Positions 24,739 to 63,763 of a DNA stretch of 64,000 bases are shown here, in pieces (within the stretch, counting starts at the first letter, position 1; each line of letters begins with the position of its first letter). The notes under the pieces are model-generated. The model searched no databases. It was not told where the DNA came from and saw only the letters and a program-made list of their open reading frames with translations. Position numbers and translations under genes: made by a program. The stretch is from Cryomorphaceae bacterium. Lineage in GTDB: Bacteria; Bacteroidota; Bacteroidia; Flavobacteriales; ECT2AJA-044. The DNA is taken from assembly GCA_017798125.1 (NCBI GenBank), contig CP059070.1:186001-250000 (forward strand), given 5' to 3'.

Positions 24739-24773
24739 GTAGTAAGGGATGGGGTGAAGTGTGCTGGACTTCG

Positions 24774-24998: not shown

Positions 24999-25011
24999 CC
25001 GCCACTATACG

Positions 25012-25061
25012 GGTGGAAGGATTTGTCTGATTGCAACCACGCTAAAAAATGCTAAAGCAGG
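25012..25061 (+). promoter_or_regulatory. Probable SAM-II riboswitch
   Basis: The segment has the SAM-II pattern: P1 GTGG (25013-25016) with CCAC (25037-25040), an AGGATTTG loop, the conserved TTGCAA, an A-rich linker, GCTAAA, and a 3' CAGG (25058-25061) that can pair with TCTG in the loop to form the pseudoknot. An alternative 8-bp hairpin (AAATGCTA 25047-25054 with TAGCATTT 25069-25076) would compete with it. Position at the transcript start before metK fits feedback by SAM. It is called from memory of the consensus, not from a covariance search. Confidence 0.75.
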
Positions 25062-25123
25062 TTTTCCCTAGCATTTATCGGACATCCAAGCCACTGCATG
25101 AACGCAAAAAGAGCAGTAGGAAT

Positions 25124-34594: not shown

Positions 34595-36598
34595 TTACTG
34601 TTGAGGAACTCTCCTCTGATACTCTTGCGCCTTTCGCGTGTCACCTACCCTATTATAGGTAATCGCAAGATTGGTCAGGACTTCTGGATCATTCGGAGCT
34701 ATGCGCTCTGCCGTGAGCAGGGCTTCTATGGCCTCTTGGTAACGTTCTTGAATTCCGTATACCGTGCCGAGGTTCTTCCAGCCTCGAACGTCATTCGGAT
34801 TGGCTTGGGTCGCGGCCTCAAAAGCCCGCTCAGACGCATTCATATCTTTTAATGCTCGGCCATAGAGCTCTCCTTTGCGAATAAGCATTTCATACTGGGT
34901 CGGATTTACAGCTAAGTAGCGGTCAATGACCCCTATTTGATACTTGGCGCTTTTGTGCCCATTTATCACAATCAGGATGTTCTTGGGCACATTGACGTTA
35001 TTCGGGGCTAGCTCAAGAATCTTGAAGTAATACTCCAAGGCCTCTTCCATATCCTGGTCGATCTTAAAAGCCACATTTCCACGAAGAAGAAGCGCATCAA
35101 CGTAATCTGGATGTATTTCAAGAGAGCGGTCAAGGTATCCCTGGGCCTCCAGGTACATCTGTTTTTGACGCTGCGGTTCTTGAATGACATCAGCAGCTTC
35201 TATGAGGCTTCCACCAGCTGTAACATTACTCTTTGCGCTGTTCTTGGAGATTTTTACATCGTGCTGAAAGAGCGTGAAATCATTCTTCCAATTCGGATTT
35301 CGGGTAATGGTCTTAACACTAAAGGCCAGGAGAAGGATGGCCAAGGTATACTGAGCTATGGCATCGGCCCGTTGGGCCATAGCGCGCGGTAAGCGCTGCA
35401 CCAAAAGAACGCCAATAACCAAGGTCCAGGCAAAGGACCCGAAATACGCGAATCGCTCGTTCATAAAGGCCCCAATGGGGAAGAATAAGTTCGATACGAT
35501 GCTCATGGTGGCGAAGAAATACAGGATGGAAAAACTCATTACATCCCGCTTTGGAAGTCGAATCAATGCGAATACTCCCATACCCAAATAGGCTGCTGCA
35601 CTCAGAATGAAGCGGAGATCCGTGAAGTTTGTTATCGGAATGTGATAGGGATAGTAATCGTAGGTCAAGGGGTGCGGCACAAACAAGAGCTTCAAATAAA
35701 CCCCGAGGGTGTAGATGATGGTCGCGTATTTCTGACCCACATTCATTTCAAGGAAAGGGTTATTCATGAGCTCCACAACCGTCTCCGATTTAGGAAAACC
35801 AATAATGGCAAAACGAATGGCCAGAAAAGCCGCAGCTCCCACGAGTAAGGGAACAAAATTTACTGCGATTTTGGGGATAGGCTTATCGGTAAAGAAATAA
35901 TGCGCCAGAGGAATCACCGCCAAGAACGTGATTGCGTTCTCCTTGCTTAAAAGCCCCATGAAAAGGGCCAAAGAGGAGTATACGGCATATTTTATTCCTT
36001 TTCCATCTAGATAGTCCCAGGAGTACTTCCAAGCCAATAGAGCGCCTAATAAGGCCATCATATCATCACGCCCCTTAATGTTGGCGACCACCTCGGTATG
36101 GAGAGGATGCGCGATGAAGAGCAGAGTCACCACCAAGGGCAGGGATAAATACCATTTATTGGACGCTTCTTGACCCGATCCCAATCGGCCCGAAATCATG
36201 CGACTGACCAATTGCCAAATCACAATACCCGTCAAGGCATAGAAGAGAATATTGAAAAAATGACTCACGCCAGGGTTCTCCCCGAAGAGCTGATATTCAA
36301 TGGCAAAGGTAACCAGCGACAGTGGCCGATACCGTCCTCCAGCAACGAGTTCCTTAGTGGTTCCGAAAAACCCGGTAAAGGTGTCGTACTTGAACAGATC
36401 TGGAATGCCCGCAAAGCCCTGCTTGGTAAACTGATTGGAAGTAATGGCGATGGCGTCGTCCAGCGCGTATTCATTGCCCAAGGTGTTTGCATAAAGCACC
36501 AAACTCACCGCCGCAATGAGCGCGTATACGGTTCGCGTCTGTTGCCACCAAGGTCCATTCTTCACCTGTGCTTTTGCCTTCTTACTCTTCTTCGCCAT
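34595..36598 (-). CDS. TMTC-like membrane glycosyltransferase with TPRs, copy 1
   Basis: 667 residues: a Lys-rich cytoplasmic N-terminus, about ten transmembrane helices (25 to ~430) and a C-terminal TPR domain (~460-660). Signature segments match the TMTC/DUF1736 family: an acidic first-loop motif LDD at 46-48, RYRPLS at 89-94 followed by EYQLFGENPGVSHFFN, and HPLHTEVVANIKGRDD at 164-179. Animal TMTC1-4 are GT-C O-mannosyltransferases using dolichyl-P-mannose on cadherin domains; a bacterial homologue would use a polyprenyl-P-sugar at the periplasmic face. It is the last of three tandem paralogues. Confidence 0.85.
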   Translation of the reverse strand: MAKKSKKAKAQVKNGPWWQQTRTVYALIAAVSLVLYANTLGNEYALDDAIAITSNQFTKQGFAGIPDLFKYDTFTGFFGTTKELVAGGRYRPLSLVTFAIEYQLFGENPGVSHFFNILFYALTGIVIWQLVSRMISGRLGSGQEASNKWYLSLPLVVTLLFIAHPLHTEVVANIKGRDDMMALLGALLAWKYSWDYLDGKGIKYAVYSSLALFMGLLSKENAITFLAVIPLAHYFFTDKPIPKIAVNFVPLLVGAAAFLAIRFAIIGFPKSETVVELMNNPFLEMNVGQKYATIIYTLGVYLKLLFVPHPLTYDYYPYHIPITNFTDLRFILSAAAYLGMGVFALIRLPKRDVMSFSILYFFATMSIVSNLFFPIGAFMNERFAYFGSFAWTLVIGVLLVQRLPRAMAQRADAIAQYTLAILLLAFSVKTITRNPNWKNDFTLFQHDVKISKNSAKSNVTAGGSLIEAADVIQEPQRQKQMYLEAQGYLDRSLEIHPDYVDALLLRGNVAFKIDQDMEEALEYYFKILELAPNNVNVPKNILIVINGHKSAKYQIGVIDRYLAVNPTQYEMLIRKGELYGRALKDMNASERAFEAATQANPNDVRGWKNLGTVYGIQERYQEAIEALLTAERIAPNDPEVLTNLAITYNRVGDTRKAQEYQRRVPQQ

Positions 36599-36604
36599 GA
36601 TGAT

Positions 36605-38533: not shown

Positions 38534-38535
38534 GC

Positions 38536-40476: not shown

Positions 40477-40547
40477 GCAGAATGTGGTGAGCTACGAAAA
40501 TAGTTTTTTTCGCGGGCGTCCCAAAAGAGCCATGCGGGTGGTTTTTT

Positions 40548-40555
40548 TACCTTTG
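40548..40555 (+). promoter_or_regulatory. Candidate -7 promoter element for the GT2 gene
   Basis: TACCTTTG, exact match to TAnnTTTG, 15 bases before the chosen ATG. A one-mismatch element (minus TATTTTCG, 40502-40495) could serve the divergent TMTC-like operon. Confidence 0.5.
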
Positions 40556-40570
40556 CCCAAACTTTTTTCC

Positions 40571-41500
40571 ATGGAGATTTCGGTGGTCATTCCAGTTATG
40601 AATGAAGAGGGCAACGTCGCTGAGTTGCACCGTGAGATTGTCGAGACATGTGTCGCAAACAACTATACCTACGAGGTCATCTTTGTCGATGATGGGTCTT
40701 CAGACCGAACCATTGAGATTATCAAAGGATTATCCCCGGTTAAATTGATTGAATTTCGAAAGAATTTTGGTCAAACAGCCGCCATGGACGCCGGCATTAA
40801 AGCGGCGCAGTACGAGTACGTTGTCACGATGGACGGCGATCGACAGAACGATCCGGCAGATATTCCGGCCATGTTGAACTTTATAGAGTCGGAAGGCTTA
40901 GACGTGGTCAGTGGTTGGCGTAAAAACCGCAAGGACAGTTTCGCCAAACATTTCGTTTCTCGCGGAGCAAACCAGTTGCGTAAGCTCCTCATCAACGACC
41001 GCATTCACGACAGCGGATGCTCCTTGAAAGTATATCGCCGTGCCTGTTTCAAAGGAATCTCCCTATACGGTGAGATGCACCGATTCATCCCGGCCATCCT
41101 CAAAATCAAAGGATTTAAAGTTGGAGAAGTTGTGGTGAACCACCGCGCGCGAACTGCAGGAGTCACGAAATACAACTGGCGCAGAACGTTAAAGGGTCTG
41201 ATCGATATGATTTCCGTTTGGTTCTGGAACAAATACTCCGTGCGCCCTCTCCACCTTCTCGGAGGTTTGGGAATCTCTGCCATGATTCTATCTTTTTTCG
41301 CTGGAGCCTGGACCTTCTACCAATTCCTAATGGGTCAAAGCATGTCTGACAGCGCCTGGCCGTTGGTGACCATGTTCCTCTTTCTAGGAGGGCTTCAACT
41401 CTTTATCTCTGGCCTACTGGCCGACATCATTATCAAGAATTACTTCGAGACCACGAAGGACCACAGCTACAGCATTGCCCGAGTTATCGAAAACGACTAA
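40571..41500 (+). CDS. GT2 glycosyltransferase, polyprenyl-phosphate sugar synthase type
   Basis: 309 residues from the ATG at 40571 (MEISVVIPVMNEEGNV). GT-A fold motifs are DDGS at 40-43 and DGDRQNDP at 88-95. Two C-terminal transmembrane helices (about 235-260 and 270-295) match the GtrB/DPM-synthase-like subgroup that transfers a sugar from a nucleotide to undecaprenyl phosphate. It would supply the donor for the adjacent TMTC-like enzymes. The frame extends upstream but overlaps the divergent gene, so the longer start is rejected. Confidence 0.92.
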   Translation: MEISVVIPVMNEEGNVAELHREIVETCVANNYTYEVIFVDDGSSDRTIEIIKGLSPVKLIEFRKNFGQTAAMDAGIKAAQYEYVVTMDGDRQNDPADIPAMLNFIESEGLDVVSGWRKNRKDSFAKHFVSRGANQLRKLLINDRIHDSGCSLKVYRRACFKGISLYGEMHRFIPAILKIKGFKVGEVVVNHRARTAGVTKYNWRRTLKGLIDMISVWFWNKYSVRPLHLLGGLGISAMILSFFAGAWTFYQFLMGQSMSDSAWPLVTMFLFLGGLQLFISGLLADIIIKNYFETTKDHSYSIARVIEND

Positions 41501-42605
41501 GCCGAGGGTCCTCATCCTCAATTATGAATTCCCCCCTCTTGGGGGAGGCGCGGCCAATGCCACTCATTATTTATTAAAAGAATTGGGCCTACGGCCCGAT
41601 GATGTTTCCGCGACGCTCATCACTTCATCTGTCGATTCTGATCGGCACGAGAAATTCGCCTCAAACATCGACATCCACTTTCTCGACATCGGGAAGAACG
41701 GGAATATCCACTACCAGAGTCAAAAAGACCTACTGACCTATTCCTGGAAAGCCTATTCCCTTGCCCGCCGCCTTCACAAAACGCAACCTTTCGATGTTGT
41801 TCACGCCTTCTTTGGTATACCATGCGGCTTTATCGCATTGCGATTGGGGGTTCCGTATATCGTATCCCTTCGCGGAAGTGACGTGCCTTTTTACAACGAA
41901 CGATTCTATTGGCAAGACAAGCTCGTCTTCAAACGTCTTAGCGGTTTGATCTGGCGAAAAGCCAAACATGTGGTCGCGAATTCAATAGGCCTTCAAGAAT
42001 TGGCTCTCCGTTCCTTTCCAAAACAAGAGGTCGGAATCATACCCAATGGAATTGACCTTGCCGAATTCCCACAAACTGCAACCATTTCTGGACAAAAAGA
42101 TCTACACATCATCAGCACGGGTCGATTAATCCCTCGCAAAGGCTATAATTTGCTTTTAGAGGCCCTAAAAGACTCTTCTGGCGTCAGAGTGTCACTTATA
42201 GGTGATGGGCCCGAAAAAACGACTCTAAAGGCCCAGGCGAAGGAGCTAGGCATTGACCTAACCCTTCATGGAGCTGTAGATCATGATCAAATTCCATCCT
42301 TACTCACCACAGCCGATCTTTTCGTTCTCCCCTCATACAACGAAGGGATGAGCAATGCTGCCCTCGAGGCTATGGCTGCAGGGCTACCCCTACTTCTCAC
42401 TGATGTTGGCGGAAGTGCTGAGCTCATTGACAGCAATGGTTGGATCATTCCTAAAGGTGAGTCCAAACCCATCAAGGAAATCATTCAACAATGTCAAGCT
42501 AATCCGGAAGCTCTGGCAAAAATGGGTATCGCTTCCAGATTGAAGGCAGAATCCATGTCTTGGTCTCATATGACAGCCCGATACCTCGAGTTATACTCTT
42601 CATAA
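41475..42605 (+). CDS. GT4-family glycosyltransferase
   Basis: About 376 residues if the TTG at 41475 is the start, overlapping the GT2 gene by 26 bases; no ATG lies near the N-terminal motif, so the exact start is uncertain. GT-B fold: a glycine-rich N-terminal loop (FPPLGGGAANATHYL), a central STGRLIPRKGYNLLLEA strand and the retaining-GT4 motif NEGMSNAALEAMAAGLP followed by DVGGSAELI. It transfers a sugar from a nucleotide donor in the cytoplasm. It is probably co-expressed with the GT2 enzyme and could extend or build a lipid-linked glycan. Confidence 0.92.
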   Translation: MPELSKTTKPRVLILNYEFPPLGGGAANATHYLLKELGLRPDDVSATLITSSVDSDRHEKFASNIDIHFLDIGKNGNIHYQSQKDLLTYSWKAYSLARRLHKTQPFDVVHAFFGIPCGFIALRLGVPYIVSLRGSDVPFYNERFYWQDKLVFKRLSGLIWRKAKHVVANSIGLQELALRSFPKQEVGIIPNGIDLAEFPQTATISGQKDLHIISTGRLIPRKGYNLLLEALKDSSGVRVSLIGDGPEKTTLKAQAKELGIDLTLHGAVDHDQIPSLLTTADLFVLPSYNEGMSNAALEAMAAGLPLLLTDVGGSAELIDSNGWIIPKGESKPIKEIIQQCQANPEALAKMGIASRLKAESMSWSHMTARYLELYSS

Positions 42606-42666
42606 AAATCACCCATTTAAATCTTTAAGGCTCTTCACGGTACTTCCTTTCCAAAGAGTCTAAAAC

Positions 42667-42696
42667 AAAAAAGCCCCCTCCGCTATGGAGGGGGCT
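42667..42696 (-). terminator. Terminator of giant adhesin gene A
   Basis: Minus-strand AGCCCCCTCC ... GGAGGGGGCT hairpin followed by six T. An identical copy follows gene B. Confidence 0.92.
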
Positions 42697-42726
42697 CTGT
42701 TTATAAGGTTTTCAGCTCTTATCCGC

Positions 42727-45700
42727 TTACTTCTGGATCACCAGGCGGCGGTTGTCTGAGTCTGTTCCGTTGCTGATCACTACGTAGTATACTCCGTTGG
42801 CCAAGTCAGCAACATCCAAGCGAACTTTACCCGTCAAGGCATTCGCTTCAGTTGTGCTCATGACAACTTGTCCAAGTCCGTTCACCACATTGATCTCCAA
42901 GTTTTGCTCACTTGAGAACTCATATCCTACGAACACTACATCTGATGTTGGGTTCGGATACAAGCTGATCATCTCGCTCAACGCTGGCTCTTCGATGCCT
43001 ACTCCTGAGATTGGGCTTTGATCTACTACTACGCTTGATACTTGCGAACATCCGTTTGCGTCGGTCACCACTACAGAGTACGTACCGTTTGGTAGGCTTA
43101 CTGCTGTTTGAGTGAACTGTGCTGGTACACTGTTCCACTGGTAGCTGTAAGGTGGTGTTCCACCGCTCACATTAGCTACTGCCGATGAGGCACTAGTACC
43201 CGCATCATAAACAGCGGTTACGATAAGCTCGGTAGGCTCGCTGATGATTACTGAGTTGTTGGCGGTACATCCGTTCGCATCAGTCACCACTACAGAGTAT
43301 GTTCCTGCAGATAGGTTGTTGATGTTCTGGGTGTTGTCACCAGTGTTCCAAGCAATCGTGTAAGGAGGTGTACCTCCGCTCACGTTCAAGCTAGCTGATC
43401 CGTCTGATCCACCGAAGCAGTTCACGTTGCTCTGTACGATGCTCGTAGCGATCGCGCTGTTCTGAGTGATGGTCGCACTTGCGTTCACCACACATCCATT
43501 CGCGTCAGTGATCACAACGTTGTAGCTACCCGCTACTACGTTCAACAGATCCTCTGTATTCGCTCCGTTGCTCCATGCGTAGCTGTATGGTGCAGTACCA
43601 CCAGTTACCGTCAAGTCAACAGTTCCAGTTGCATCTCCGAAGCAGTTCACATTCGTTACCGTAGTCGAAGCTACCAAAGCAGCTGGCTCGCCTACAGTCA
43701 CACTCGCAGTGAACGTACATCCGTTCGCATCAGTAATCACTCCTGAGTAGATACCCGCTGGTACGTTGCTCAAGTCTTGGCTGATCGCTCCGTTGCTCCA
43801 AGCGTAGCTGTATGGAGGTGTTCCACCCGTCACGGTAATGTCTACCGCTCCGTCTGTTCCACCGTTACAGCTTACGTTCGTTACAACCGCGTTGCTTACT
43901 GTGATTCCTGTTGCTGGCTCAGTGATCACGATCGTTGCGCTAATGCTACATCCGTTCGCATCCGTTACTGTTCCTGTGTATGAACCTGCTGGTACGTTCA
44001 TCAAGTCTTGAGTCACTGCACCGTTGCTCCAGTTGTAGGTGTATGGTGCTGTACCGCCAGTAACCGTAAGGTCAATCATACCGGTGCTTGCTCCGTTACA
44101 CAATACATCTGTTACTACTGCGCTGGCAGCCAAAGCAGAAGCAGGTCCCGCTACAGTTACCGTTGCAGAGAAGGTACATCCAGCCGCATCGGTTACCGTA
44201 CCGGTGTACGATCCTGCTGGAATGTTGCTCAAGTCTTCAGTGTTGTCTCCATTGCTCCACATGAAGCTGTATGGAGGCGTACCACCTGTTACTGTGATAT
44301 CAATCGCTCCTGTTGCATCACCGAAGCACAATACGTCGGTTACAACAGCACTTACGCTGATTGGCGATGCTGGTCCGTTAACAACCGCACTTGCAGTTGT
44401 GCTACATCCGTTCGCATCTGTGATGATTACGGTGTATGTTCCAGGTGCCAAGTTCGTGCGATCCTCGCTGGTGATTCCGCCACCCCAGTTGTAGGTGTAT
44501 GGCATTGTTCCACCTGTTACGGTTACATCAACCGTTCCGTTGTTCGCTCCGAAGCAGTCTACATCTGTAGCTACTGTTGTCGCAGTCAACAAGCTAGGCT
44601 CGGTCAAGGTCGTAGAAGCACTTACTGTAGCTCCACAAGCATCGGTTACGTTGATGATGTAAACACCAGCAGCCAATCCTGTACGATCTTCGATTCCAGT
44701 GACACCGTCACTCCAAGTAATGGTGTATGGCATCGTTCCTCCAGTGATCGTTGACATGATCATACCGTCCATTCCGCTGTTACAGCTTGGGTTGGTCGTC
44801 GCATCAATCGTTACCGCCAACATATCTGGCTCACTAATCACTACTGTATTGGTCGCGGTACATCCGTTCGCATCAGTTACCGTCACGCTGTACGTGCCAG
44901 CTCCCAAGTTAGACAGATCCTCAGTGTTCGCTCCATTGCTCCAGTTGAAGCTGTATGGTGCAGTTCCTCCTGCTGGAGCCAAGTCGATAGAACCTGTAGT
45001 TGCTCCGTTACAGTCAACATCTGTAGCCTTCGCTACTGTCGCCAACAATTGAGATGGCTGATCAACAACCAATCCTTTGATGAAGGTCTGACATCCATTC
45101 GCATCCGTTACCGTCACTTGGTATCCACCAGCAAACAAGTCTTGTGGATTCTGTACGGTAGCTCCGTTGCTCCAGCTGAAGCTGTATGGTGTTGTTCCAC
45201 CTGTTACCGAGATATCGATAAATCCAGTGTTGTCACCGAAGCAAGTAAATACATCCTGTACGGATACTAGTGATGCAGCCAATGGCGAAGTAGGTCCAGT
45301 TATCGTCACAACGTTACTGGTTACCATACATCCGTTCGCATCCGTTACGTCTACAAAGTAGCTACCACCTGAGATCAAGTTGTCAATCGACGCTGTCGTC
45401 GCTCCATTGCTCCACATGTAGCTGTATGGCATTGTTCCACCACTCACTACTACGCTCACCATTCCAGTAGCATCACCGAAGCAGTTCACATTTGTTGCAG
45501 AAGCTACAGCACTCAGACTTGTAGACTGTGTTACTGTGATTCCAGAGATTCCATCAGTACATCCGTTCGCATCGGTAATCGCTACTGCGTATACACCCGC
45601 TGGAATACCACTCAAGTCTTGAGTCGTTGCACTGAACAATGGATCATCGCTCGTCCATGCATACGTGTATGGAGATGTTCCTCCTGATACGCTGATGTCG

Positions 45701-52100: not shown

Positions 52101-53555
52101 TACATATGGTGCAGTACCTCCAGAAATCGACACAGTCACTTGACCGTCTGAGTCTCCGTTACAGGTTACGTCAATTACGTTCGTCACAGAAGCAGACAAC
52201 AAACCTGGCTCCGTAAACGTGAATCCAAACTCTTGTGGAGGACATGCGCCACCACTGTTGTCGCTAACTGTTACTTCATAGATACCTGGTGCCAATCCTG
52301 AAATACTCGTTACTCCATTTGCACCAGTACTCCACTCGTATGTATATGGCATTGAACCTCCACTTGCAGTCACTGCTGCAGTAGCTGTTCCACCAAAACA
52401 ATCAATCTCTTGTGTATTTGCATTGTCAATTCCTGCAGCAAATGCATTCGCAGGCTCATTAACAGTATACGTCTCTACAACAGTACAGCTTCCGCTTGTT
52501 ACTGTTACGGTATAGTCACCGGCCAACAAGCCAGCAATCGCATCCGTGTTTCCACCATTACTCCAAGCGTAAGTGAAACCTCCAACACCACCACTCGCAG
52601 TAATTGCAACCGCACCAGTCGGCTGACCAGCACATGCTACATCTGTAATATCTACATTAGAAACAACCAAAGCCGGAGCAGCAGCTACTGTCTCTGGCCC
52701 GTAGTTCACACTACATCCATTGGCATCCGTAATAACTACGCTGTAGTCTCCAGGTGCCAATCCAGTCAGATCTTCTGTCGTTGCTCCGTTGTCCCAAGCA
52801 AATGTGAAACCTCCGGCTCCACCACCAACAAGAATGTCAATAGTCCCGTCATTCAAACAAGGCTCTGTTTGATCCGTAACCGTTGTAGTGGATACTGTGA
52901 TCGAAGGCGGCTCGCTCAAGGTTACTGAAGCTGTAGCCGCTGGACATCCATTTACATCTGTTACTGTCAAATCGTACGTTCCAGCTGCCAACCCACTTGG
53001 GTTCGCACCGGCCGCTCCGTTTGTCCAGGTATAGGTGTATGGTGCCGTACCTCCGCTTACTGTAGTCGAGATAGATCCTGAATTGTCTCCATTACAAGCC
53101 AAGTCAGTTCCAGCTGCGATTACCGCAATTGCATCCGGTTGGGTTACCGTTACCGACATCGCTACAGCTGTTCCCGCTGCATTGTCTGTCACTGTAACAC
53201 TGTAAACCCCGGCAGCAACTCCTGTACGTGTCGAACCAAACAAAGAGAAGGTTGACCCGTCCGGCGCTACTGTACCATCAGGTGTGTTTTGATCTGAAGT
53301 CGCACCGTCACTCCATGCATAGGAATAAGGTACTGGACCGCCTGAAGCAGTCAAACGAATGATACCGTCCGTGCCACCGTTACAGGTGACATCCTGGTCC
53401 ACAAACAAAGTAGCAGCTAACTGCGCGTGGGCTACATTTCCCACTAACAGAAAGAATGCCATAGCCAAAAAGCTAATGAAAGTTCGCTTACCCGAGGACA
53501 ACAGGCCGCGATTCGAGACACCTGTATCAGGCGTCGCATTGTAGAGGTTACTCAT
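49047..53555 (-). CDS. Giant SprB-repeat T9SS adhesin A, N-terminal fragment (frameshifted)
   Basis: The 5' part of gene A, 1,502 codons before a stop caused by a 1-base deletion. The N-terminus MSNLYNATPDTG is followed by a signal peptide that begins only at about residue 27 (FISFLAMAFFLLVGNVAHAQ), an unusually long n-region. About 15 SprB-type repeats follow. Between codons ~970 and 1,240 one repeat is interrupted by a propeller-like insertion absent from copy B (49849-50648). Upstream bases 53556-53612 hold only one-mismatch promoter elements. Confidence 0.9.
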   Translation of the reverse strand: MSNLYNATPDTGVSNRGLLSSGKRTFISFLAMAFFLLVGNVAHAQLAATLFVDQDVTCNGGTDGIIRLTASGGPVPYSYAWSDGATSDQNTPDGTVAPDGSTFSLFGSTRTGVAAGVYSVTVTDNAAGTAVAMSVTVTQPDAIAVIAAGTDLACNGDNSGSISTTVSGGTAPYTYTWTNGAAGANPSGLAAGTYDLTVTDVNGCPAATASVTLSEPPSITVSTTTVTDQTEPCLNDGTIDILVGGGAGGFTFAWDNGATTEDLTGLAPGDYSVVITDANGCSVNYGPETVAAAPALVVSNVDITDVACAGQPTGAVAITASGGVGGFTYAWSNGGNTDAIAGLLAGDYTVTVTSGSCTVVETYTVNEPANAFAAGIDNANTQEIDCFGGTATAAVTASGGSMPYTYEWSTGANGVTSISGLAPGIYEVTVSDNSGGACPPQEFGFTFTEPGLLSASVTNVIDVTCNGDSDGQVTVSISGGTAPYVWGEPLLAPGSANPVTGSSFTVTVSAGQYAFQVQDANGCGPSTVNVTVVEPDAISVTATDINNVTCNGNADGSIDVTLSGGAGGYTYTWVQGGTSIFGGGGSQASIGGLEGGSYDLTVTDANGCEAFFTYNVIEPTSLSGSGTVTNILCAGDNNGSIDLTVTDGTPPYTFSWNNGATTEDISGLSAGTYDVFVEDANGCVTFGNLFFTVTEPTALTVVATVNGQDVTCNGGSDGAIDLDVSGGTMPYSYMWNTGDMTEDLSGLTAGLYNVVVTDANGCTAPLAVSISEPDAITISGGATDISCAGAGDGSIAVTISGGTPGYNYVWIQNGVSFNPGTGSQASLSFLAAGNYELSVTDNNGCPQSFFFTINDPAPIAVSVTPTAPDCPGDFGAATASVSGGTMPYTYLWSTGAISATETGLLAAGSPYSVTVTDANGCTGVGSVTIVDPSPVTVSVDATDISCFGAADGSAVASASGGAGGYTYTWSTGSGLQYAINGGGAPGGTISLVEVSSNGGVITENSSQVIPGISNAWGIEVDPTDGTVYIIATGGFAPGPRELYELDVNTLGLTFVGDLSATGISSFAIANSGLLYTVNTSGEVYEVNISTLATTIVANLGAISGVGVAYDSDSDRLLVSHIDQILDDVIVEEVSLSTYAVTNIGSASIAATFPSCPAGGPGNYGVKAIWYTGNSSLMMLPKDVCNDIYEVQLTAGLSSTLSSTLATSNVLGFGGDGSILTTGSNLSGAEEGVYFVTARDANGCSATASITITEPAELTVVVNSVTDAPCFGENGTVVLDVDGGTQFTGAPGEPANPNGYPYIYTWSGGTTTIMDHIADGVPAGNYTVMVTDRNGCTAMTTVSVGEPALLEATATGTNPSCGGAADGTASVAATGGTMPYSYAWSNGMTMQNIAGLAGGTYDVTVTDANGCTATSSVTLMDPDPVAIASADIKNSCNPGTDGAVTLNVTGGDGNYTYLWSDGQTSNPATGLAAGSYSVTVNDGNGCGPATGNYVITQPAAPLR
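49849..50648 (-). other. Propeller-like domain insertion specific to adhesin A
   Basis: This stretch replaces the core of a repeat that is intact in copy B (about 60775-60835) and makes A longer by 741 bases (247 codons, in frame). The encoded segment has blade-like repeats such as WGIEVDPTDGTVYIIATGG, GLLYTVNTSGEVYEVNIS and GVAYDSDSDRLLVSH, unlike the SprB pattern. Its base use looks more AT-rich than the flanking repeats, consistent with acquisition by recombination. Confidence 0.8.
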
Positions 53556-53633
53556 TTTGACGAAAATTAATGTCGGTTTTCAACGCGCTAATATACTTCA
53601 AATATTTTAATGCCTTTCCAAAGAGTCTAAAAC

Positions 53634-53663
53634 AAAAAAGCCCCCTCCGCTATGGAGGGGGCT
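53634..53663 (-). terminator. Terminator of giant adhesin gene B
   Basis: Same hairpin and T run as at 42667-42696; it lies between B and the start of A, so A must have its own promoter or rely on read-through. Confidence 0.92.
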
Positions 53664-53693
53664 CTGTTTATAAGGTTTTCAGCTCTTATCCGC

Positions 53694-56456
53694 TTACTTC
53701 TGGATCACCAGGCGGCGGTTGTCTGAGTCTGTTCCGTTGCTGATCACTACGTAGTATACTCCGTTGGCCAAGTCAGCAACATCCAAGCGAACTTTACCCG
53801 TCAAGGCATTCGCTTCAGTTGTGCTCATGACAACTTGTCCAAGTCCGTTCACCACATTGATCTCCAAGTTTTGCTCACTTGAGAACTCATATCCTACGAA
53901 CACTACATCTGATGTTGGGTTCGGATACAAGCTGATCATCTCGCTCAACGCTGGCTCTTCGATGCCGATTGATGGAAGTGGGCTTCCGTCAACTACTACA
54001 GAGGCTACAGAAGAACATCCGTTTGCGTCGGTCACCACTACAGAGTACGTACCGTTTGAAAGTCCTACTGCTGTTTGAGTGAACTGTGCTGGTACACTGT
54101 TCCACTGATAGCTGTAAGGTGCGGTTCCTCCGGTTACGTTCGCTACAGCTGAAGTAGCTGAAATCGTTGAGTCATAAACAGCGGTTACGATAAGCTCGGT
54201 AGGCTCGCTGATGATTACTGAGTTGTTGGCGGTACATCCGTTCGCATCAGTCACCACTACAGAGTATGTTCCTGCAGATAGGTTGTTGATGTTCTGGGTG
54301 TTGTCACCAGTGTTCCAAGCAATCGTGTAAGGAGGTGTACCTCCGCTCACGTTCAAGCTAGCTGATCCGTCTGATCCACCGAAGCAGTTCACGTTGCTCT
54401 GTACGATGCTCGTAGCGATCGCGCTGTTCTGAGTGATGGTCGCACTTGCGTTCACCACACATCCATTCGCGTCAGTGATCACAACGTTGTAGCTACCCGC
54501 TACTACGTTCAACAGATCCTCTGTATTCGCTCCGTTGCTCCATGCGTAGCTGTATGGTGCAGTACCACCAGTTACCGTCAAGTCAACAGTTCCAGTTGCA
54601 TCTCCGAAGCAGTTCACATTCGTTACCGTAGTCGAAGCTACCAAAGCAGCTGGCTCGCCTACAGTCACACTCGCAGTGAACGTACATCCGTTCGCATCAG
54701 TAATCACTCCTGAGTAGATACCCGCTGGTACGTTGCTCAAGTCTTGGCTGATCGCTCCGTTGCTCCAAGCGTAGCTGTATGGAGGTGTTCCACCCGTCAC
54801 GGTAATGTCTACCGCTCCGTCTGTTCCACCGTTACAGCTTACGTTCGTTACAACCGCGTTGCTTACTGTGATTCCTGTTGCTGGCTCAGTGATCACGATC
54901 GTTGCGCTAATGCTACATCCGTTCGCATCCGTTACTGTTCCTGTGTATGAACCTGCTGGTACGTTCATCAAGTCTTGAGTCACTGCACCGTTGCTCCAGT
55001 TGTAGGTGTATGGTGCTGTACCGCCAGTAACCGTAAGGTCAATCATACCGGTGCTTGCTCCGTTACACAATACATCTGTTACTACTGCGCTGGCAGCCAA
55101 AGCAGAAGCAGGTCCCGCTACAGTTACCGTTGCAGAGAAGGTACATCCAGCCGCATCGGTTACCGTACCGGTGTACGATCCTGCTGGAATGTTGCTCAAG
55201 TCTTCAGTGTTGTCTCCATTGCTCCACATGAAGCTGTATGGAGGCGTACCACCTGTTACTGTGATATCAATCGCTCCTGTTGCATCACCGAAGCACAATA
55301 CGTCGGTTACAACAGCACTTACGCTGATTGGCGATGCTGGTCCGTTAACAACCGCACTTGCAGTTGTGCTACATCCGTTCGCATCTGTGATGATTACGGT
55401 GTATGTTCCAGGTGCCAAGTTCGTGCGATCCTCGCTGGTGATTCCGCCACCCCAGTTGTAGGTGTATGGCATTGTTCCACCTGTTACGGTTACATCAACC
55501 GTTCCGTTGTTCGCTCCGAAGCAGTCTACATCTGTAGCTACTGTTGTCGCAGTCAACAAGCTAGGCTCGGTCAAGGTCGTAGAAGCACTTACTGTAGCTC
55601 CACAAGCATCGGTTACGTTGATGATGTAAACACCAGCAGCCAATCCTGTACGATCTTCGATTCCAGTGACACCGTCACTCCAAGTAATGGTGTATGGCAT
55701 CGTTCCTCCAGTGATCGTTGACATGATCATACCGTCCATTCCGCTGTTACAGCTTGGGTTGGTCGTCGCATCAATCGTTACCGCCAACATATCTGGCTCA
55801 CTAATCACTACTGTATTGGTCGCGGTACATCCGTTCGCATCAGTTACCGTCACGCTGTACGTGCCAGCTCCCAAGTTAGACAGATCCTCAGTGTTCGCTC
55901 CATTGCTCCAGTTGAAGCTGTATGGTGCAGTTCCTCCTGCTGGAGCCAAGTCGATAGAACCTGTAGTTGCTCCGTTACAGTCAACATCTGTAGCCTTCGC
56001 TACTGTCGCCAACAATTGAGATGGCTGATCAACAACCAATCCTTTGATGAAGGTCTGACATCCATTCGCATCCGTTACCGTCACTTGGTATCCACCAGCA
56101 AACAAGTCTTGTGGATTCTGTACGGTAGCTCCGTTGCTCCAGCTGAAGCTGTATGGTGTTGTTCCACCTGTTACCGAGATATCGATAAATCCAGTGTTGT
56201 CACCGAAGCAAGTAAATACATCCTGTACGGATACTAGTGATGCAGCCAATGGCGAAGTAGGTCCAGTTATCGTCACAACGTTACTGGTTACCATACATCC
56301 GTTCGCATCCGTTACGTCTACAAAGTAGCTACCACCTGAGATCAAGTTGTCAATCGACGCTGTCGTCGCTCCATTGCTCCACATGTAGCTGTATGGCATT
56401 GTTCCACCACTCACTACTACGCTCACCATTCCAGTAGCATCACCGAAGCAGTTCAC
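53694..56456 (-). CDS. Giant SprB-repeat T9SS adhesin B, C-terminal fragment
   Basis: 920 codons; the visible start is only where the frame re-opens after three indels at about 56481-56694 (one extra C, two missing C, plus-strand reading, relative to copy A). It carries about eleven SprB-type repeats and ends in the same T9SS type A domain as gene A. The last repeat differs from A in a block of equal length (A 42998-43206 versus B 53965-54173), while the sorting domain itself appears unchanged. Confidence 0.88.
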
Positions 56457-56611
56457 ATTTGTTGCAGAAGCTACAGCACTCCAGACTTGTAGACTGTGTT
56501 ACTGTGATTCCAGAGATTCCATCAGTACATCCGTTCGCATCGGTAATCGCTACTGCGTATACACCCGCTGGAATACCACTCAAGTCTTGAGTCGTTGCAC
56601 TGAACAATGGA

Positions 56612-59600
56612 TCATCGCTCGTCCATGCATACGTGTATGGAGATGTTCCTCCTGATACGCTGATGTCGATCGCTCAGTTGTCGCTCCGTTACATCAATAT
56701 TGGTTACACTCTCTACTCCGCTAGCCAAAGCTGATGCAGGTTCAGAGATGGTTACACTCAAGAATTCTTGACATCCGTTCGCATCGGTAATGGTTACTGA
56801 GTTCACACCCGCCATAAGGTCGGTTGGGTCTTGTACCATTGATCCGTTGCTCCACATGTAGCTGTATGGAAGCGTTCCACCTACTACGTAGATATCTGCT
56901 GTTCCATCCATTCCTCCGTTACAGCTTACATCCGTAAAGCCGATTACAGAAGCATACAAGCTTGAGAATGGCTCTGTGATAACAAAGCTCTGTACCGTTG
57001 TACATCCGTTAGCATCCTCTACTACTACACTGTAAGATCCTGCAGCCAATCCGCTGATATCTTCTGTAGTAGCTCCGTTGGTCCAGTCATACATGTATGG
57101 TGCTGTTCCTCCAGTTACGCTCAAGTCAATCGCTCCTGTAGCGTCTCCTTTACAAAGAACATCCGTATCAACTCCTGTGACAACCAAAGTAGTCGCAGTT
57201 CCGATGGTGAATGTGGCAAAGCCTTCACAACCGTACTTATCGTTGATGCGTACTGTATACTCACCCGCACACAATCCAGCTGGATCCTGTACTGTACTCA
57301 ATACTGGTCCTGTAGGCACTCCGTTTACTGAAGCTCTCCAGTAGTACGTGTATGGCGCTGTTCCTCCTGTAGGAGTCAAGTCAATCAATGAAGTTGAGCA
57401 GTCTCCAGCACAAGCAACATCCGTTACTACTGCTGTTCCACCTACTGGCATTGGCTCGTATACATCTACGCTTACTGTAGTGGCACATTGTCCCGTAGCA
57501 TCGGTAATGGCTACCGTGTATGTTCCGGCAAACAATGGGTTTCCGTCAACATTCACACCAGTGCTCATTCCAGTACCACCAGTACTCCACAAGTAGCTGT
57601 ATGGAGGAATACCTCCTGTTACGCTTACTACAGAAGCCGTTGCGTTAAATCCACCTGGACACAAGATGCTGTCCGCTGCAGTCACAACTGTCAAGCCAGC
57701 TGGCTCAGTAATCGTGAAGCTCGCTTGTGGCACAGTACATCCGTTCGCGTCTGTTACATCTACGAAGTACGTTCCAGCTCCCAATCCTGTGAAGGTGTTG
57801 CTACCTCCGTCAGTGGCAATTGAACCACTAGCGTTTGTCGCTCCGCTTACTACCCATGCGTATGGAGCTACACCACCTGAGATGGTCACAGAAGCTGTCG
57901 CATCCGTTCCTCCGTTACATGTTACGCTCGCATCGCTAACCAAATCAACTACGATTGGTGCAGGACCAGTCTCCTCAAAGACTGCGTAATACGTACATCC
58001 TCCTACTAAGTCATCTACTTCGATGGTGTAGAAGCCTACTCCCAAGTTCACAGCATTCGCCATTCCATTCACTACCATGCCAGACTGACCAGCAAGTGGA
58101 GTGATTGGTCCTGGGTACTGACCAGCATACCACTGGTAAGTGTATACTCCTGAACCTCCTGAGATATTCGCTACCGCTGATCCAGTAGTATCACCGAAGC
58201 AGTCGATATCGTCTTTTCCTGTAAACGTGATGGTCAAGTCTGAAGGCTGACCAATCACTGCTTGGTCAAACTCTTTACATCCCTGTGCATCCGTTACTGT
58301 AATGTCATAAGTACCAGCGGCCAAACCACCGATCGTTCCTTCCCATGCTGTTCCTGGGAACGTGTTGTCGCTCAATCCAGTCAACATTCCGCTACCAGCA
58401 GTTGTACCATTTGACCATACCATGTCGTATGGTTGAGTACCCTGGTCGATGTTGAAAACAAACGATCCATCAGCCAATCCGAAGCAGCTCGCATCCGTAG
58501 TAGATACTACGCTGGTGACCAACTTCGTAGGCTCTGTAATGCTCGCTGTAGCTCCAGCTGCAGGACATCCGTTCTGATCAATTACTGCAATTGAGTATGA
58601 TCCCGGTGCCAAGCTGTTGATCACAATCGGCGCAAATGGTGCAGTCAAGAAGGTACTGTCTACCGTCGCTCCTGCTCCGTCCGTTGTTACTACAATATAT
58701 GGTCCGTTTCCAGAGGTTACATCAATTTCGATGCTTCCATCATTCGCTCCATTACACGTTACATTACCCAAAGTCAAGGCTACTGTCGCTGGATCCGTTC
58801 CATCAGCTACGAAGAATGGGAAGTCAAACTCACATCCGTTCGCATCTGTGATGGTCAAGCTATAGTTTCCTGATACTAAGTTCAACAGGTCTGTTGTACC
58901 CGCTACAGGACCGTTAGGACCTTCCCAAGCGTAGCTCAACGCTCCAGTACCACCGCTAGCAGTGATGTGGATCTCTCCCGCTGTACCCTTAGCACAAGCT
59001 GTATTGTTTACAATGTCATCAATGACTGTTACTGCTGGAGCCTCTCCTACGTTGTAGCTCTCTGTAGCGCTACATCCGTTAGCATCCGTTACAACAACTG
59101 ATACTGTCGCTCCCGCTGCCAATCCAGACAAAGAGTTGCTCGTTGTTGTCATTCCTCCATTCCAAGAGTATACATATGGTGCCGTTCCACCAGTCACCGA
59201 TACAGATACGCTTCCGTCTGGTGAGTAAGTGTCCGAACCACTGTTACAGCTCGTCGGTGTAATCGTCTCCGTAATCGCAATCGATGCAGGAGCAGTCAAT
59301 GTGTATGAGTTCGTGTACTCACATCCGTTGGCATCAGTTACAGTCAATCCGTATGTACCGTTTCCAGCTACCAACGTGATTGGGCCTGCAGTTGAACCAG
59401 CATCACCGTTACTCCATACATAAGAGTAGTTTGGTGTACCACCTGAAACAACCAAATCAACTGAACCACTTCCAGCAGCACAGCTAGGATCTGTAGTTGT
59501 TCCTGTAACCGTGATTGCAGCTGGCTCGGTAACTGTGTAAGATACGCTCTCAACACATCCGTTCGCATCTGTAACATTCACAGTGTACACTCCTCCTGGT

Positions 59601-62600
59601 ACGCCGCTGATCGATTGACCGTTAACACCGTTACTCCAAGAGTAGCTCAACATTCCTGTTCCACCACTTGCCGTTACAGAGATAAACGCATCTGTGTCTC
59701 CGAAGCAATCCAAATCTGTCTTGTTCGCAGGATCGTTAGTGATAACAATCGCCGCTGGCTCATTGATGATGATGTTCAAGTATACTACCGTACATCCTAC
59801 CGCATCTGTTACCGTTACAGAGTAGTTTCCTGCTCCTAGGTTCGAGATGTCTGGTGTCGTTGCAGCGTTGCTCCACAAGTACGTGTATGGAGGTGTTCCT
59901 CCTGTTGTTCCACCGTTGTCAATCTCTCCGTCCATACCTCCGGCACATGTTACGTCCGTACGGTTGAAGTTCGCTACCTCCAATGGAGCAGCTGGTTGAG
60001 TGATGACATAGTTTCCTGTTGCCGGTCCACATCCGTTTCCGTCGTTAACCGTCACACTGTATGATCCAGCAGCCAATCCTGTCGCTGGGTTTGATGTCTG
60101 ACCGTCACTCCACAAGTAGGTGTAGTTTCCGTCTCCTCCTGTTACATTAAGCGTTACCGCTCCGTCTGTTCCAGGGTTACATGAATTCTTAATATCTGCT
60201 GATGCAATTGCAACTGGATCTGGATCCATCAAGGTTACAGACGATGTCGCCGTACATCCATTAGCATCCGTTACCGTTACATCATATGTTCCACCAGCAA
60301 GACCGGCGATGTTTTGCATCGTCATTCCGTTGCTCCATGCATAGCTGTATGGCATAGTACCTCCAGTCGCAGCAACACTTGCCGTTCCGTCAGCAGCTCC
60401 ACCACAACTTGGGTTTGTTCCCGTTGCAGTCGCTTCCAACAATGCTGGCTCACCAACACTTACCGTTGTCATCGCTGTACAACCGTTGCGATCAGTTACC
60501 ATTACTGTGTAGTTACCTGCTGGTACTCCATCAGCAATGTGGTCCATGATCGTAGTTGTACCACCTGACCAAGTGTAGATGTATGGATATCCGTTTGGAT
60601 TAGCAGGCTCTCCTGGCGCACCAGTAAACTGAGTTCCTCCGTCTACATCCAATACTACTGTTCCGTTCTCACCAAAACATGGCGCATCCGTTACACTGTT
60701 TACTACAACAGTCAATTCTGCAGGCTCAGTGATCGTAATACTCGCTGTAGCTGAACATCCGTTCGCGTCCATTGCAGTTACAGAGTACGCTCCAGCAGTC
60801 AAGCCACTGATGTTCGCACCTGATTGAGTGTTACTCCAAGTATAAGTATAACCACCAGCACCACCTGAAGCAGAAGCTACAGCTGATCCGTCAGCGGCTC
60901 CGAAACAAGAGATGTCTGTTGCGTCTACAGATACTGTTACTGGGCTAGGATCAACAATTGTTACTGATCCAACTCCTGTACATCCGTTTGCATCTGTTAC
61001 CGTTACTGAGTAAGGTGATCCAGCTGCCAACAATCCAGTTTCTGTAGCTGAGATTGCTCCCGTGCTCCACAAGTAGGTGTATGGCATTGTTCCTCCACTC
61101 ACTGAAGCTGTTGCCGCTCCAAAGTCTCCAGGACAATCTGGAGCTGTTGGCGTTACACTTACTGCAATTGGGGCAGGATCGTTAATGGTAAAGAAGAAGC
61201 TCTCCTGACATCCATTGTTATCCGTTACGCTCAATTCGTAAGATCCAGCATCCAATCCTGTTTGTGAAGTGATTGGGAAGTTTCCTCCGTCAAATGCAGT
61301 TCCAGACTCCAACCATACATAATTGTATCCTGGTGTTCCACCGCTGATGGTTACAGCAATGCTACCATCACCAGCTCCTGCACATGAAATATCTGTTGCT
61401 CCACCTGAAATTGTAATTGCATCTGGCTCGCTAATGCTCACTGCCAAAGGAGCAGTACACCCGTTCGCGTCTGTTACAACTACATTATACAATCCAGCAG
61501 TCAAACCGCTAAGATCTTCAGTCATGTCACCTGTGTTCCACATGTAGCTGTATGGCATTGTACCTCCAGATACATCCAAGTCGATAGCTCCGTCGCTACC
61601 TCCGTTACAGGTTACATCTTGTCCGTTCACGGTAGCCACTACTGTAAGTGCAGTTGGCTCTGTTACTGTAAAGAACAGGTTACCAAAAGTGACACAGCCA
61701 TTGGCATCTTCGACAAATACGTCGTAGGTACCGGCGGACAATCCGCTAATATCTTCTGTGGTTGCACCGTTATTCCAGCTAAAGGTATAAGGCGGTGTTC
61801 CATCTGTTACTGTAAGGTCAATCGAACCATTGTTGTCACCAGCACACAAAATGTTGGTCACTGTTCCTGATCCGCTCAAAGATGTTGGCTCAATAACATT
61901 GTACGTAAAGAATGCCTCGCATCCGTTAGCATCTGTTACGGTCAAGTCATATGATCCTCCTTCAAGGCCTCCAATACTTGCTTGTGATCCACCACCACCG
62001 AAGATGCTGGTTCCACCTTGAACCCATGTGTAGGTGTATCCACCTGCTCCACCACTCAAAGTCACATCAATGCTTCCGTCTGCGTTTCCGTTACACGTTA
62101 CATTGTTAATATCTGTCGCTGTAACTGAAATCGCATCTGGCTCAACAACCGTTACGTTAACCGTAGATGGTCCACAGCCATTTGCATCCTGCACTTGGAA
62201 AGCGTACTGTCCGGCACTTACCGTTACAGTAAAGCTTGAACCTGTTACTGGGTTAGCACTTCCTGGGGCCAACAATGGCTCACCCCATACATATGGTGCA
62301 GTACCTCCAGAAATCGACACAGTCACTTGACCGTCTGAGTCTCCGTTACAGGTTACGTCAATTACGTTCGTCACAGAAGCAGACAACAAACCTGGCTCCG
62401 TAAACGTGAATCCAAACTCTTGTGGAGGACATGCGCCACCACTGTTGTCGCTAACTGTTACTTCATAGATACCTGGTGCCAATCCTGAAATACTCGTTAC
62501 TCCATTTGCACCAGTACTCCACTCGTATGTATATGGCATTGAACCTCCACTTGCAGTCACTGCTGCAGTAGCTGTTCCACCAAAACAATCAATCTCTTGT

Positions 62601-62857
62601 GTATTTGCATTGTCAATTCCTGCAGCAAATGCATTCGCAGGCTCATTAACAGTATACGTCTCTACAACAGTACAGCTTCCGCTTGTTACTGTTACGGTAT
62701 AGTCACCGGCCAACAAGCCAGCAATCGCATCCGTGTTTCCACCATTACTCCAAGCGTAAGTGAAACCTCCAACACCACCACTCGCAGTAATTGCAACCGC
62801 ACCAGTCGGCTGACCAGCACATGCTACATCTGTAATATCTACATTAGAAACAACCAA
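56612..62857 (-). CDS. Giant SprB-repeat T9SS adhesin B, central fragment
   Basis: 2,081 codons, the largest open piece of gene B, spanning the junction that is broken in copy A (here [10 protein letters not shown] reads through). It begins after a 2-base deletion near 62867 and ends in nonsense after a deletion near 56694. Its repeats are the same as in A except for the missing propeller insertion, one exchanged whole repeat (B about 59290-59530, A 48318-48600, net 39 bases) and one exchanged half-repeat (B about 61200-61325, A 51015-51135, equal length). Confidence 0.88.
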
Positions 62858-63176
62858 AGCCGGAGCAGGCTACTGTCTCTGGCCCGTAGTTCACACTACA
62901 TCCATTGGCATCCGTAATAACTACGCTGTAGTCTCCAGGTGCCAATCCAGTCAGATCTTCTGTCGTTGCTCCGTTGTCCCAAGCAAATGTGAAACCTCCG
63001 GCTCCACCACCAACAAGAATGTCAATAGTCCCGTCATTCAAACAAGGCTCTGTTTGATCCGTAACCGTTGTAGTGGATACTGTGATCGAAGGCGGCTCGC
63101 TCAAGGTTACTGAAGCTGTAGCCGCTGGACATCCATTTACATCTGTTACTGTCAAATCGTACGTTCCAGCTGCCAA
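62844..63176 (-). CDS. Giant SprB-repeat T9SS adhesin B, small fragment
   Basis: 110 codons between two indels (near 63242 and 62867). The translation (GTYDLTVTDVNGCPAATASV ...) continues the second and third repeats exactly as in gene A, which shows this is one gene cut by sequence breaks rather than a separate small protein. Confidence 0.8.
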   Translation of the reverse strand: MAAGTYDLTVTDVNGCPAATASVTLSEPPSITVSTTTVTDQTEPCLNDGTIDILVGGGAGGFTFAWDNGATTEDLTGLAPGDYSVVITDANGCSVNYGPETVACSGFGCF

Positions 63177-63763
63177 CCCACTTGGGTTCGCACCGGCCGC
63201 TCCGTTTGTCCAGGTATAGGTGTATGGTGCCGTACCTCCGCTACTGTAGTCGAGATAGATCCTGAATTGTCTCCATTACAAGCCAAGTCAGTTCCAGCTG
63301 CGATTACCGCAATTGCATCCGGTTGGGTTACCGTTACCGACATCGCTACAGCTGTTCCCGCTGCATTGTCTGTCACTGTAACACTGTAAACCCCGGCAGC
63401 AACTCCTGTACGTGTCGAACCAAACAAAGAGAAGGTTGACCCGTCCGGCGCTACTGTACCATCAGGTGTGTTTTGATCTGAAGTCGCACCGTCACTCCAT
63501 GCATAGGAATAAGGTACTGGACCGCCTGAAGCAGTCAAACGAATGATACCGTCCGTGCCACCGTTACAGGTGACATCCTGGTCCACAAACAAAGTAGCAG
63601 CTAACTGCGCGTGGGCTACATTTCCCACTAACAGAAAGAATGCCATAGCCAAAAAGCTAGTAAAGCCTTTTGACAATACAGATCCTCTGTTTTTCGACGA
63701 AACGGTTCCTGGATCGCCCGTTGGACTTGATCCGCTTGAAACCTGATAGTAGAGGTTACTCAT
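63152..63763 (-). CDS. Giant SprB-repeat T9SS adhesin B, N-terminal fragment
   Basis: 203 codons. The N-terminus MSNLYYQVSSGSSPTG differs from A after the shared first five residues and is eight residues longer. The signal peptide core FTSFLAMAFFLLVGNVAHAQ is the same as in A. The frame runs through the first repeat and breaks after NSGSISTTV because one T (plus strand, near 63242) is missing relative to copy A; the final ~30 residues are out of frame. Confidence 0.85.
   Translation of the reverse strand: MSNLYYQVSSGSSPTGDPGTVSSKNRGSVLSKGFTSFLAMAFFLLVGNVAHAQLAATLFVDQDVTCNGGTDGIIRLTASGGPVPYSYAWSDGATSDQNTPDGTVAPDGSTFSLFGSTRTGVAAGVYSVTVTDNAAGTAVAMSVTVTQPDAIAVIAAGTDLACNGDNSGSISTTVAEVRHHTPIPGQTERPVRTQVGWQLERTI

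Follow-up and report, generated by a model that had tools for sequence, protein, structure and literature searches.

We describe here a candidate protein O-glycosylation locus in a Cryomorphaceae bacterium, located within a stretch of 64,000 nucleotides (the window, G000:C1:186001-250000); the genome is a single contig of 2.84 Mb with a completeness of 96%. Three tandem genes encode proteins in which a predicted glycosyltransferase domain of the C fold (GT-C) is followed by tetratricopeptide repeats (TPR), the architecture of the animal TMTC enzymes. Divergent from this triplet are a family 2 (GT2) and a family 4 (GT4) glycosyltransferase gene, beside which lie two giant SprB-repeat adhesin genes of the type 9 secretion system (T9SS). 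The same gene list had been given in an earlier note on this DNA, and the open reading frames (ORFs) and Pfam matches show it to be correct; the interpretation built on it is partly supported.

With a probability of roughly 45%, we propose that the TMTC-type enzymes, supplied by a GT2-made donor, O-glycosylate exported proteins, the adhesins being likely acceptors. In the cytoplasm, the ArnC/PgfS-type GT2 would load a single sugar onto polyprenyl phosphate. After flipping of this lipid-linked sugar, the GT-C enzymes, placed in the inner membrane, would transfer the sugar to exported proteins on the periplasmic side. Their periplasmic TPR tails would choose the acceptors, probably the neighbouring immunoglobulin (Ig)-like, Thr-rich SprB-repeat adhesins and perhaps others too, before export by the T9SS, and the GT4 enzyme may extend or prepare the glycan. 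We infer the sugar, the Ser/Thr acceptor, the periplasmic position of the TPR and the adhesin as substrate; a lipid-linked-sugar-dependent transferase is well supported, and O-glycosylation of the adhesins by the triplet is plausible by analogy.

Architecture and motifs of the TMTC-like triplet

The triplet lies on the minus strand in the order P0003 (38536-40476, 646 residues), P0002 (36605-38533, 642 residues) and P0001 (34595-36598, 667 residues). The genes are separated by gaps of 6 and 2 bp and look like one operon, transcribed from 40476 downwards. P0002 and P0003 share 41% and 38% identity with P0001, respectively. Pfam detects TPR in all three proteins and PMT_2 above the cut-off in P0002 and P0003 (28.7 bits in P0003). 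The TMTC_DUF1736 domain (PF08409, cut-off 27 bits) reaches 24.8 bits in P0001 in the protein scan and 27.2 bits in the genome search, in which P0002 scores 21.1 bits and P0003 gives no match. Among 40 aligned family members at E ≤ 0.01, TMTC_DUF1736 is present in 30 and PMT_2 in 24.

Seven motifs surrounding the lipid-linked sugar are described for human TMTC1-4 in Table 4 of PMC7801869, in the part of that paper available to us. Analysis of these motifs in an alignment of 86 proteins, comprising the three window proteins and 83 relatives from 80 loci, revealed a strongly conserved catalytic domain. The acidic first-loop pair, whose loss in homologues would have refuted the reading of the earlier note, is invariant, with DD in all 84 rows that have letters there. 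The RP of (S)YRP is found in 86/86 rows. In the RxD motif, R is kept in 82/86 and the third residue is acidic throughout (86/86, E in 81), while KE of KE(T/Q)xxT is present in 86/86 and its last T in 71. The D of the DW motif is also kept in 86/86, with W replaced by Y in all 86, and ERxxY retains R in 86/86 and E in 82/86, the last residue being Y in 44, F in 41 and H in 1. Only motif M6, PxxP, stands apart: none of the three window proteins has P at either site (17 and 14 residues before the E of ERxxY), and P occurs there in 4 and 3 of the 86 rows. Of the seven human ligand motifs, six (M1-M5 and M7) thus retain their core residues in the bacterial catalytic domain; the absence of M6 counts against our proposal.

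The structure prediction that the earlier note had proposed as a check yielded, for P0003, a GT-C fold. The AlphaFold model of P0003, generated with 31 sequences, displays a predicted local distance difference test (pLDDT) of 89.1 and a predicted TM-score (pTM) of 0.84. In VIA-align comparisons, residues ~7-445 of the model align with GT-C enzymes and residues ~450-646 with TPR proteins. The matches to solved enzymes are AglB (Z 20.6, root-mean-square deviation (rmsd) 5.2, 328 residues), yeast STT3 (Z 19.5, rmsd 4.7, 328 residues), Pmt4 (Z 17.4, rmsd 4.2, 328 residues), ArnT (Z 17.3, rmsd 5.2, 340 residues) and chain B of the Pmt1-Pmt2 complex (Z 17.0, rmsd 4.6, 342 residues). A TMTC structure is not among the best 50 VIA-align matches, an absence that is uninformative, and the Foldseek matches listed for the model are mostly TPR and other helical-repeat proteins. 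When the PDB sequences were searched, neither a single catalytic domain nor a profile of 40 sequences gave a match. Taken together, fold and motifs make it highly probable that the triplet proteins are GT-C transferases, and their predicted architecture and motifs are those of the TMTC type.

Two more distant GT-C/TPR proteins are encoded elsewhere in the genome, at G000:C1:702666-704156 (L134) and 1886997-1888568 (L135); no SprB gene was seen in the 9 kb around either of them.

The GT2 enzyme and its association with TMTC-like genes

The GT2 gene (40571-41500, plus strand, 309 residues) is divergent from the triplet at a distance of 94 bp, and its likely start, ATG 40571, is shared by the orthologue in G001, the one same-genus genome of our draw. 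Its best NCBIfam model is PgfS, with 148.8 bits against a cut-off of 500, followed by ArnC with 138.3 bits, also far below cut-off. Against the PDB sequences, it matches ArnC (E 3e-34), Sll0501 (4e-27), which we take to be of the GtrB type, and dolichyl-phosphate-mannose (DPM) synthase (1e-16). ArnC and DPM synthase both charge polyprenyl phosphate with a sugar, so the same role is likely for the window enzyme, a likely polyprenyl-phosphate-sugar synthase by sequence. The earlier description of this gene as DPM-synthase-like stands for the general polyprenyl-phosphate-sugar type, but ArnC, GtrB and PgfS are closer, and the better matches to ArnC and Sll0501 show that the enzyme is not strictly speaking a DPM synthase. 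The donor used by the triplet would probably be a polyprenyl-phosphate sugar. The GT4 gene, assigned by domain scans, starts at or near the GT2 end (41475-42605 as listed, plus strand, start approximate) and has an orthologue at the same place in G001.

We surveyed the neighbourhoods of TMTC-like genes at 99 loci, comprising 19 from a draw of the phylum (every match there except those in the own genome) and 80 matches with flanking bases, selected from those listed, in a draw of the class, each with ~10 kb on either side where the contig allowed. A second set holds the best 80 of 445 loci from a collection of genome contigs. As controls we used 38 stretches from the contigs of part of the loci and 551 other ORFs of 450-900 residues from all three sets. 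One locus occurs in two sets (L032 and L136), and 13/179 loci have more than one TMTC-like gene, loci being compared with single ORFs.

A GT2 gene of the ArnC/DPM type lies within 100 bp of the TMTC-like gene at 6/99 and 2/80 loci, on the same strand in 7 of the 8 cases. This frequency (8/179) compares with 0/551 for the other ORFs (p 1e-5). Two genes served as seeds for the GT2 profiles, that of the window and that of locus L121, which had already been seen; without L121 the count is 7/178 (p 5e-5). The adjacent pairs are spread over families f3, f76, f85, f94 and f124 together with loci L001 and L007, and the best models for the GT2 proteins of L121 and L166 are polyprenyl-phosphate-sugar transferases, all below cut-off. 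The GT2 adjacency is a real, non-random link, which supports a lipid-linked-sugar donor.

A methyltransferase-like gene was also seen near the GT2 and TMTC-like genes in L007, L166, L167, L216 and L252, and further in L223 and L239. Such a gene is present in 6/99 and 1/80 TMTC regions and in 0/38 controls, the one in L166 matching Methyltransf_23. The sugar transferred by the TMTC-like enzymes may be methylated.

A glycolipid or lipopolysaccharide (LPS) acceptor, as in ArnC-ArnT, is the main rival to a protein. In this reading, the GT2, GT4 and TMTC-like enzymes would act on a glycolipid or on a polysaccharide of the cell surface (exopolysaccharide, the LPS core or the anionic LPS to which type A T9SS cargo is anchored), and the adhesins would be neighbours simply because this is a T9SS/gliding region. 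The GT-C fold is common to ArnT, whose acceptor is lipid A, the window GT2 is ArnC-like, and a methyltransferase-like gene accompanies GT2 and TMTC-like genes at the first five loci named above. The gliding and secretion genes GldL/M/N, a GldK-like gene and PorP/SprF, ~4-10 kb past the window, could moreover explain the adhesin position. On the other side stands the TPR, a protein-binding module that each of the three window proteins shares with the two further relatives in the genome. Characterised GT-C/TPR enzymes also act on proteins, according to the available text of PMC11292533. On this balance a protein acceptor for the triplet seems somewhat favoured, and the glycolipid explanation, although a serious one, remains the less probable at well below even odds.

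SprB-repeat adhesins as candidate acceptors

The two adhesin copies lie on the minus strand, A at 42727-53555 and B at 53694-63763, and share the same C-terminal end. The PF13573 matches amount to 24 and 14 SprB stretches in the two ORFs of adhesin A, which ends in a T9SS type A C-terminal sorting domain (PF18962/TIGR04183). The Thr content of the neighbouring adhesin is 13.4%. The earlier reading of two giant SprB T9SS proteins thus stands for the repeats and sorting domain but not for whole genes: copy A is split into two frames (42727-49104 and 49047-53555) and copy B into four listed ORFs (53694-56456, 56612-62857, 62844-63176 and 63152-63763). The frame breaks of copy A do not coincide with those of copy B, and either assembly error or decay may be their cause. 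Similarly, the adhesins adjoin the GT4 gene as the earlier note had said, but they do not follow it in the same direction, GT4 and adhesin A being convergent on a terminator-like hairpin (42672-42698) that is kept in G001.

The copies are 98-99% identical across three blocks, with one replaced segment and a segment of ~0.7 kb found in A only. These segment differences suggest that the pair arose by tandem duplication and is not a single region entered twice into the assembly. Together with the positions of the frame breaks, they look as if the copies recombine.

A segment of two SprB repeats was modelled as an all-beta, Ig-like structure (pLDDT 94.1, pTM 0.71), in agreement with the beta-sandwich-like repeats that had been supposed. 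Among solved structures it is most similar to GhpA, the Aureispira grappling-hook protein (Z 9.4, rmsd 3.6, 144 residues); Ig domains, for example that of NCAM (Z 8.3, rmsd 6.3), come next. A cadherin is not among the best 50 structural matches, which is uninformative. Thr is mostly on strands (16/79 strand residues against 7/73 others), partly in T-x-T runs. A bacterial counterpart of cadherin O-mannosylation can be envisaged, in which TMTC-type enzymes with a polyprenyl-phosphate-sugar synthase of their own would glycosylate strand Thr of the SprB repeats in the periplasm before T9SS export, under a rule other than the known sequon, each of the three copies dealing with its own repeat face or sugar. 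The earlier note had drawn much of this parallel; we regard it as possible yet doubtful.

The caveat that the general Bacteroidota O-glycosylation sequon is sparse in these repeats proved right, with 4 occurrences in adhesin A against 23.8 ± 4.3 in shuffles, the repeats not being independent samples. By observed/expected counts, the window ORFs give 4/14.6, 0/9.2, 1/6.3 and 3/13.6. This depletion bears on the proposal that the TMTC-like proteins carry out the first (mannosyl) transfer in the general O-glycosylation system of the phylum, for which the enzyme is missing. Glycans of that system commonly begin with mannose and the transferase is undiscovered, as stated in the available part of PMC12871550, where almost every family of the phylum is also reported to be enriched in the sequon. 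TMTC-like genes are patchy by comparison, 55/60 genomes drawn as relatives having no match at 1e-20 and the 5/60 with a match including the own genome. The proposal fits poorly because of this gene distribution, and the rarity of the sequon in adhesin A speaks against it as well; we consider it very improbable.

Elsewhere in the survey, the TMTC-adjacent SprB adhesins contrast in sequon content (observed/expected). They are rich in the f84 loci L136 (54/16.3, the same locus as L032), L214 (35/11.5), L217 (29/11.2) and L242 (29/10.3), and poor in the window, L121 (2/5.5) and L166 (0/2.7). L140 is also rich (18/6.5), and L167 gives 12/11.6. A sequon rule separating the adhesins of TMTC loci was dropped because two control adhesins are poor too (L181 1/10.7, L190 7/14.9).

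An SprB gene, defined by two or more repeat matches, lies within 4 kb at 12/99 TMTC loci and near 2/81 control ORFs (p 0.014), the control rate in other ORF size ranges being 6/143 and 1/40; contig ends hide repeat-rich neighbours of this kind. At four loci, each of a different family, GT2, TMTC-like and SprB genes form a triad: the window (f1), L121 (G047, f3), L166 (G541, f94) and L167 (G363, f85). The gene order is GT2-TMTC-SprB in L121 and GT2-TMTC-TMTC-SprB in L166 and L167, with a PorP/SprF gene in between in L167. SprB genes are found within 4 kb at 3/6 GT2-flanked loci compared with 9/93 others (p 0.02), or at 2/5 when L121, the locus that prompted the comparison, is left out (p 0.10).

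In the genome-contig set, an SprB gene lies within 4 kb at 3/80 loci. BLAST gives an SprB match at 7/80 loci (L009, L025, L032, L036, L064, L071 and L072), of which 4 satisfy the two-repeat rule at a distance of up to 10 kb (3 at up to 4 kb); L009, L036 and L071 were dropped. GT2, GT4 and SprB as general conserved neighbours were rejected on these best 80 of 445 loci.

The arrangement around the triplet is conserved in G001, which has the triplet, GT2 and GT4 in identical order. The triplet genes pair one to one with those of G001 at tree distances of 0.24-0.32 (0.24 for P0001 and 0.27 for P0002), so the triplication is probably older than the two species. The G001 contig ends just past the expected adhesin stop, beside the same hairpin, from which we infer that the adhesin is probably present but lost to assembly.

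At the genome level, SprB matches at 1e-5 occur in 38/60 genomes drawn as relatives. In the phylum draw, TMTC-like genes are found in 13/296 genomes and SprB in 57/296, SprB being present in 8/13 TMTC-positive and 49/283 TMTC-negative genomes (p 7e-4). Co-occurrence was rejected as proof because the within-class difference is small and descent explains most of it: SprB is present in 8/8 TMTC-positive and 46/65 negative genomes of the class (p 0.08), a split that assumes a genome list ordered by kinship.

This small difference is one of several observations that weigh against adhesins as acceptors. The SprB excess fades at shorter distances (9/99 within 2.5 kb, p 0.06; 3/99 within 1.2 kb, p 0.39) and against control centres (3/38, p 0.36 for the 12/99), and 8 of the 12 SprB loci belong to family f84, without which 4/90 are left (p 0.39). 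No SprB gene lies within 4 kb at 87/99 loci, and at 84/99 both an SprB gene within 4 kb and a GT2 gene within 200 bp are lacking (15/99 have either). TMTC-like genes are widespread, with matches at 1e-60 in 168/395 genomes of an even draw of the class, often 2-4 each. Among the genomes drawn as relatives, 33/60 have SprB and no TMTC-like match at 1e-20, and none of the 5 TMTC-positive genomes from beyond the class shows an SprB match at 1e-6. The window GT2 is of a different, longer type than the GT2 of the other triads, and other lineages keep other TMTC neighbours (GH3-, DUF1343-, ExbB/ExbD- and LolE-like, by eye). Finally, the closeness of the adhesins to T9SS and gliding genes, which makes their export by the T9SS natural, could also explain their position without any sugar enzymes.

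A widespread family with varied neighbours could equally modify a broad set of periplasmic and surface proteins, the proximity to SprB being chance, as the loss of the excess without f84 would also suggest. The triads in four families and, less so once L121 is left out, the SprB frequency at GT2-flanked loci speak against chance proximity, and we judge such a broad specificity rather unlikely. The SprB-TMTC link is suggestive in single lineages only and is not general. The neighbour survey called for in the earlier note thus gave triads in three more families, but no general rule; likewise, co-occurrence does extend beyond this genome, but SprB is common in genomes with no TMTC-like match. That the neighbouring adhesins are among the acceptors of the triplet is a tentative proposal, to which we give somewhat less than an even chance.

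By eye, a GH3/NagZ-like gene is directly downstream of the TMTC-like gene at 12 loci and a DUF1343/NamZ-like gene directly upstream at 7; ExbB/ExbD-like genes occur at 7-9 loci and a LolE-like gene nearby at 14. These loci include L016, L030, L035, L038, L056, L063, L067, L069, L070, L076, L114 and L115, among others. A link of the TMTC-like genes of other lineages to cell-wall recycling is possible.

Comparison with known systems and genomic setting

To our knowledge, TMTC-type enzymes are functionally known only from animals. Like animal TMTC1-4 (CAZy GT105), the window proteins have a GT-C domain with C-terminal TPR and the core residues of M1-M5 and M7, and their presumed acceptor is an Ig-like, Thr-rich repeat protein, which is a parallel and not a test. 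They differ in having only a borderline DUF1736, no PxxP M6, three tandem copies and a linked GT2. Similarly, the ArnC-ArnT pair combines a lipid-carrier GT2 with a GT-C enzyme of similar sequences and folds, but ArnT has no TPR, unlike the window GT-C enzymes.

Strands B and G of cadherin domains are the sites that the animal enzymes mannosylate, and their TPR are thought to recruit the substrate, according to the available text of PMC11292533. Full-length prokaryotic TMTC-like homologues are already in print (PMC7801869, as far as that source was available). Among the titles listed in literature searches, which covered few subscription journals, none deals with the action of bacterial TMTC-like enzymes on adhesins.

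A second parallel is the Pgf system of Streptococcus mutans (PgfS, PgfM1, PgfE and PgfM2), where PgfS and the protein mannosyltransferase (PMT)-like PgfM1/M2 are needed to modify the adhesin Cnm, as given in the available part of PMC5856776. Both loci have a PgfS/ArnC-type GT2, more than one PMT-like enzyme and an adjoining Thr-rich adhesin. However, the score of the window GT2 is too far below the PgfS cut-off for a PgfS equivalog, the window proteins have TPR, whereas none is mentioned for PgfM in that part of the source, and the window adhesins are T9SS cargo, whereas the Pgf adhesin is a sortase substrate. An epimerase was not among the genes scanned at the locus and beyond, a scan that covered window genes from 31 kb onwards. 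With the general Bacteroidota system (D-S/T-x; PMC12871550, in the part available), the window shares the phylum and a presumed non-cytoplasmic protein O-glycosylation, but the sequon is depleted in the window adhesins and the gene distribution differs.

Should Ig-like repeats of adhesins prove to be substrates of the bacterial enzymes, the tie of the TMTC family to beta-sandwich adhesion proteins would span domains of life. Bacteroidota would then have a defined glycosylation system for their giant adhesive proteins, testable through the three-gene operon, and the survey offers cleaner test loci in L166, L167 and L121.

Beyond the window end, GldN, GldM, GldL and PorP/SprF lie at L132:4206-9775 (G000:C1:254206-259775), and the GldK position is filled by a GldK-like protein with an FGE-sulfatase domain. 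Three additional PorP/SprF genes are found elsewhere in the same genome. Within the window, a SAM-I riboswitch (24772-24870, minus strand) stands back to back with a SAM-II riboswitch (25007-25065, plus strand), ~140 bp apart on opposite strands. They are located at the starts of divergent ORFs, of which the plus-strand one is metK-like by eye.

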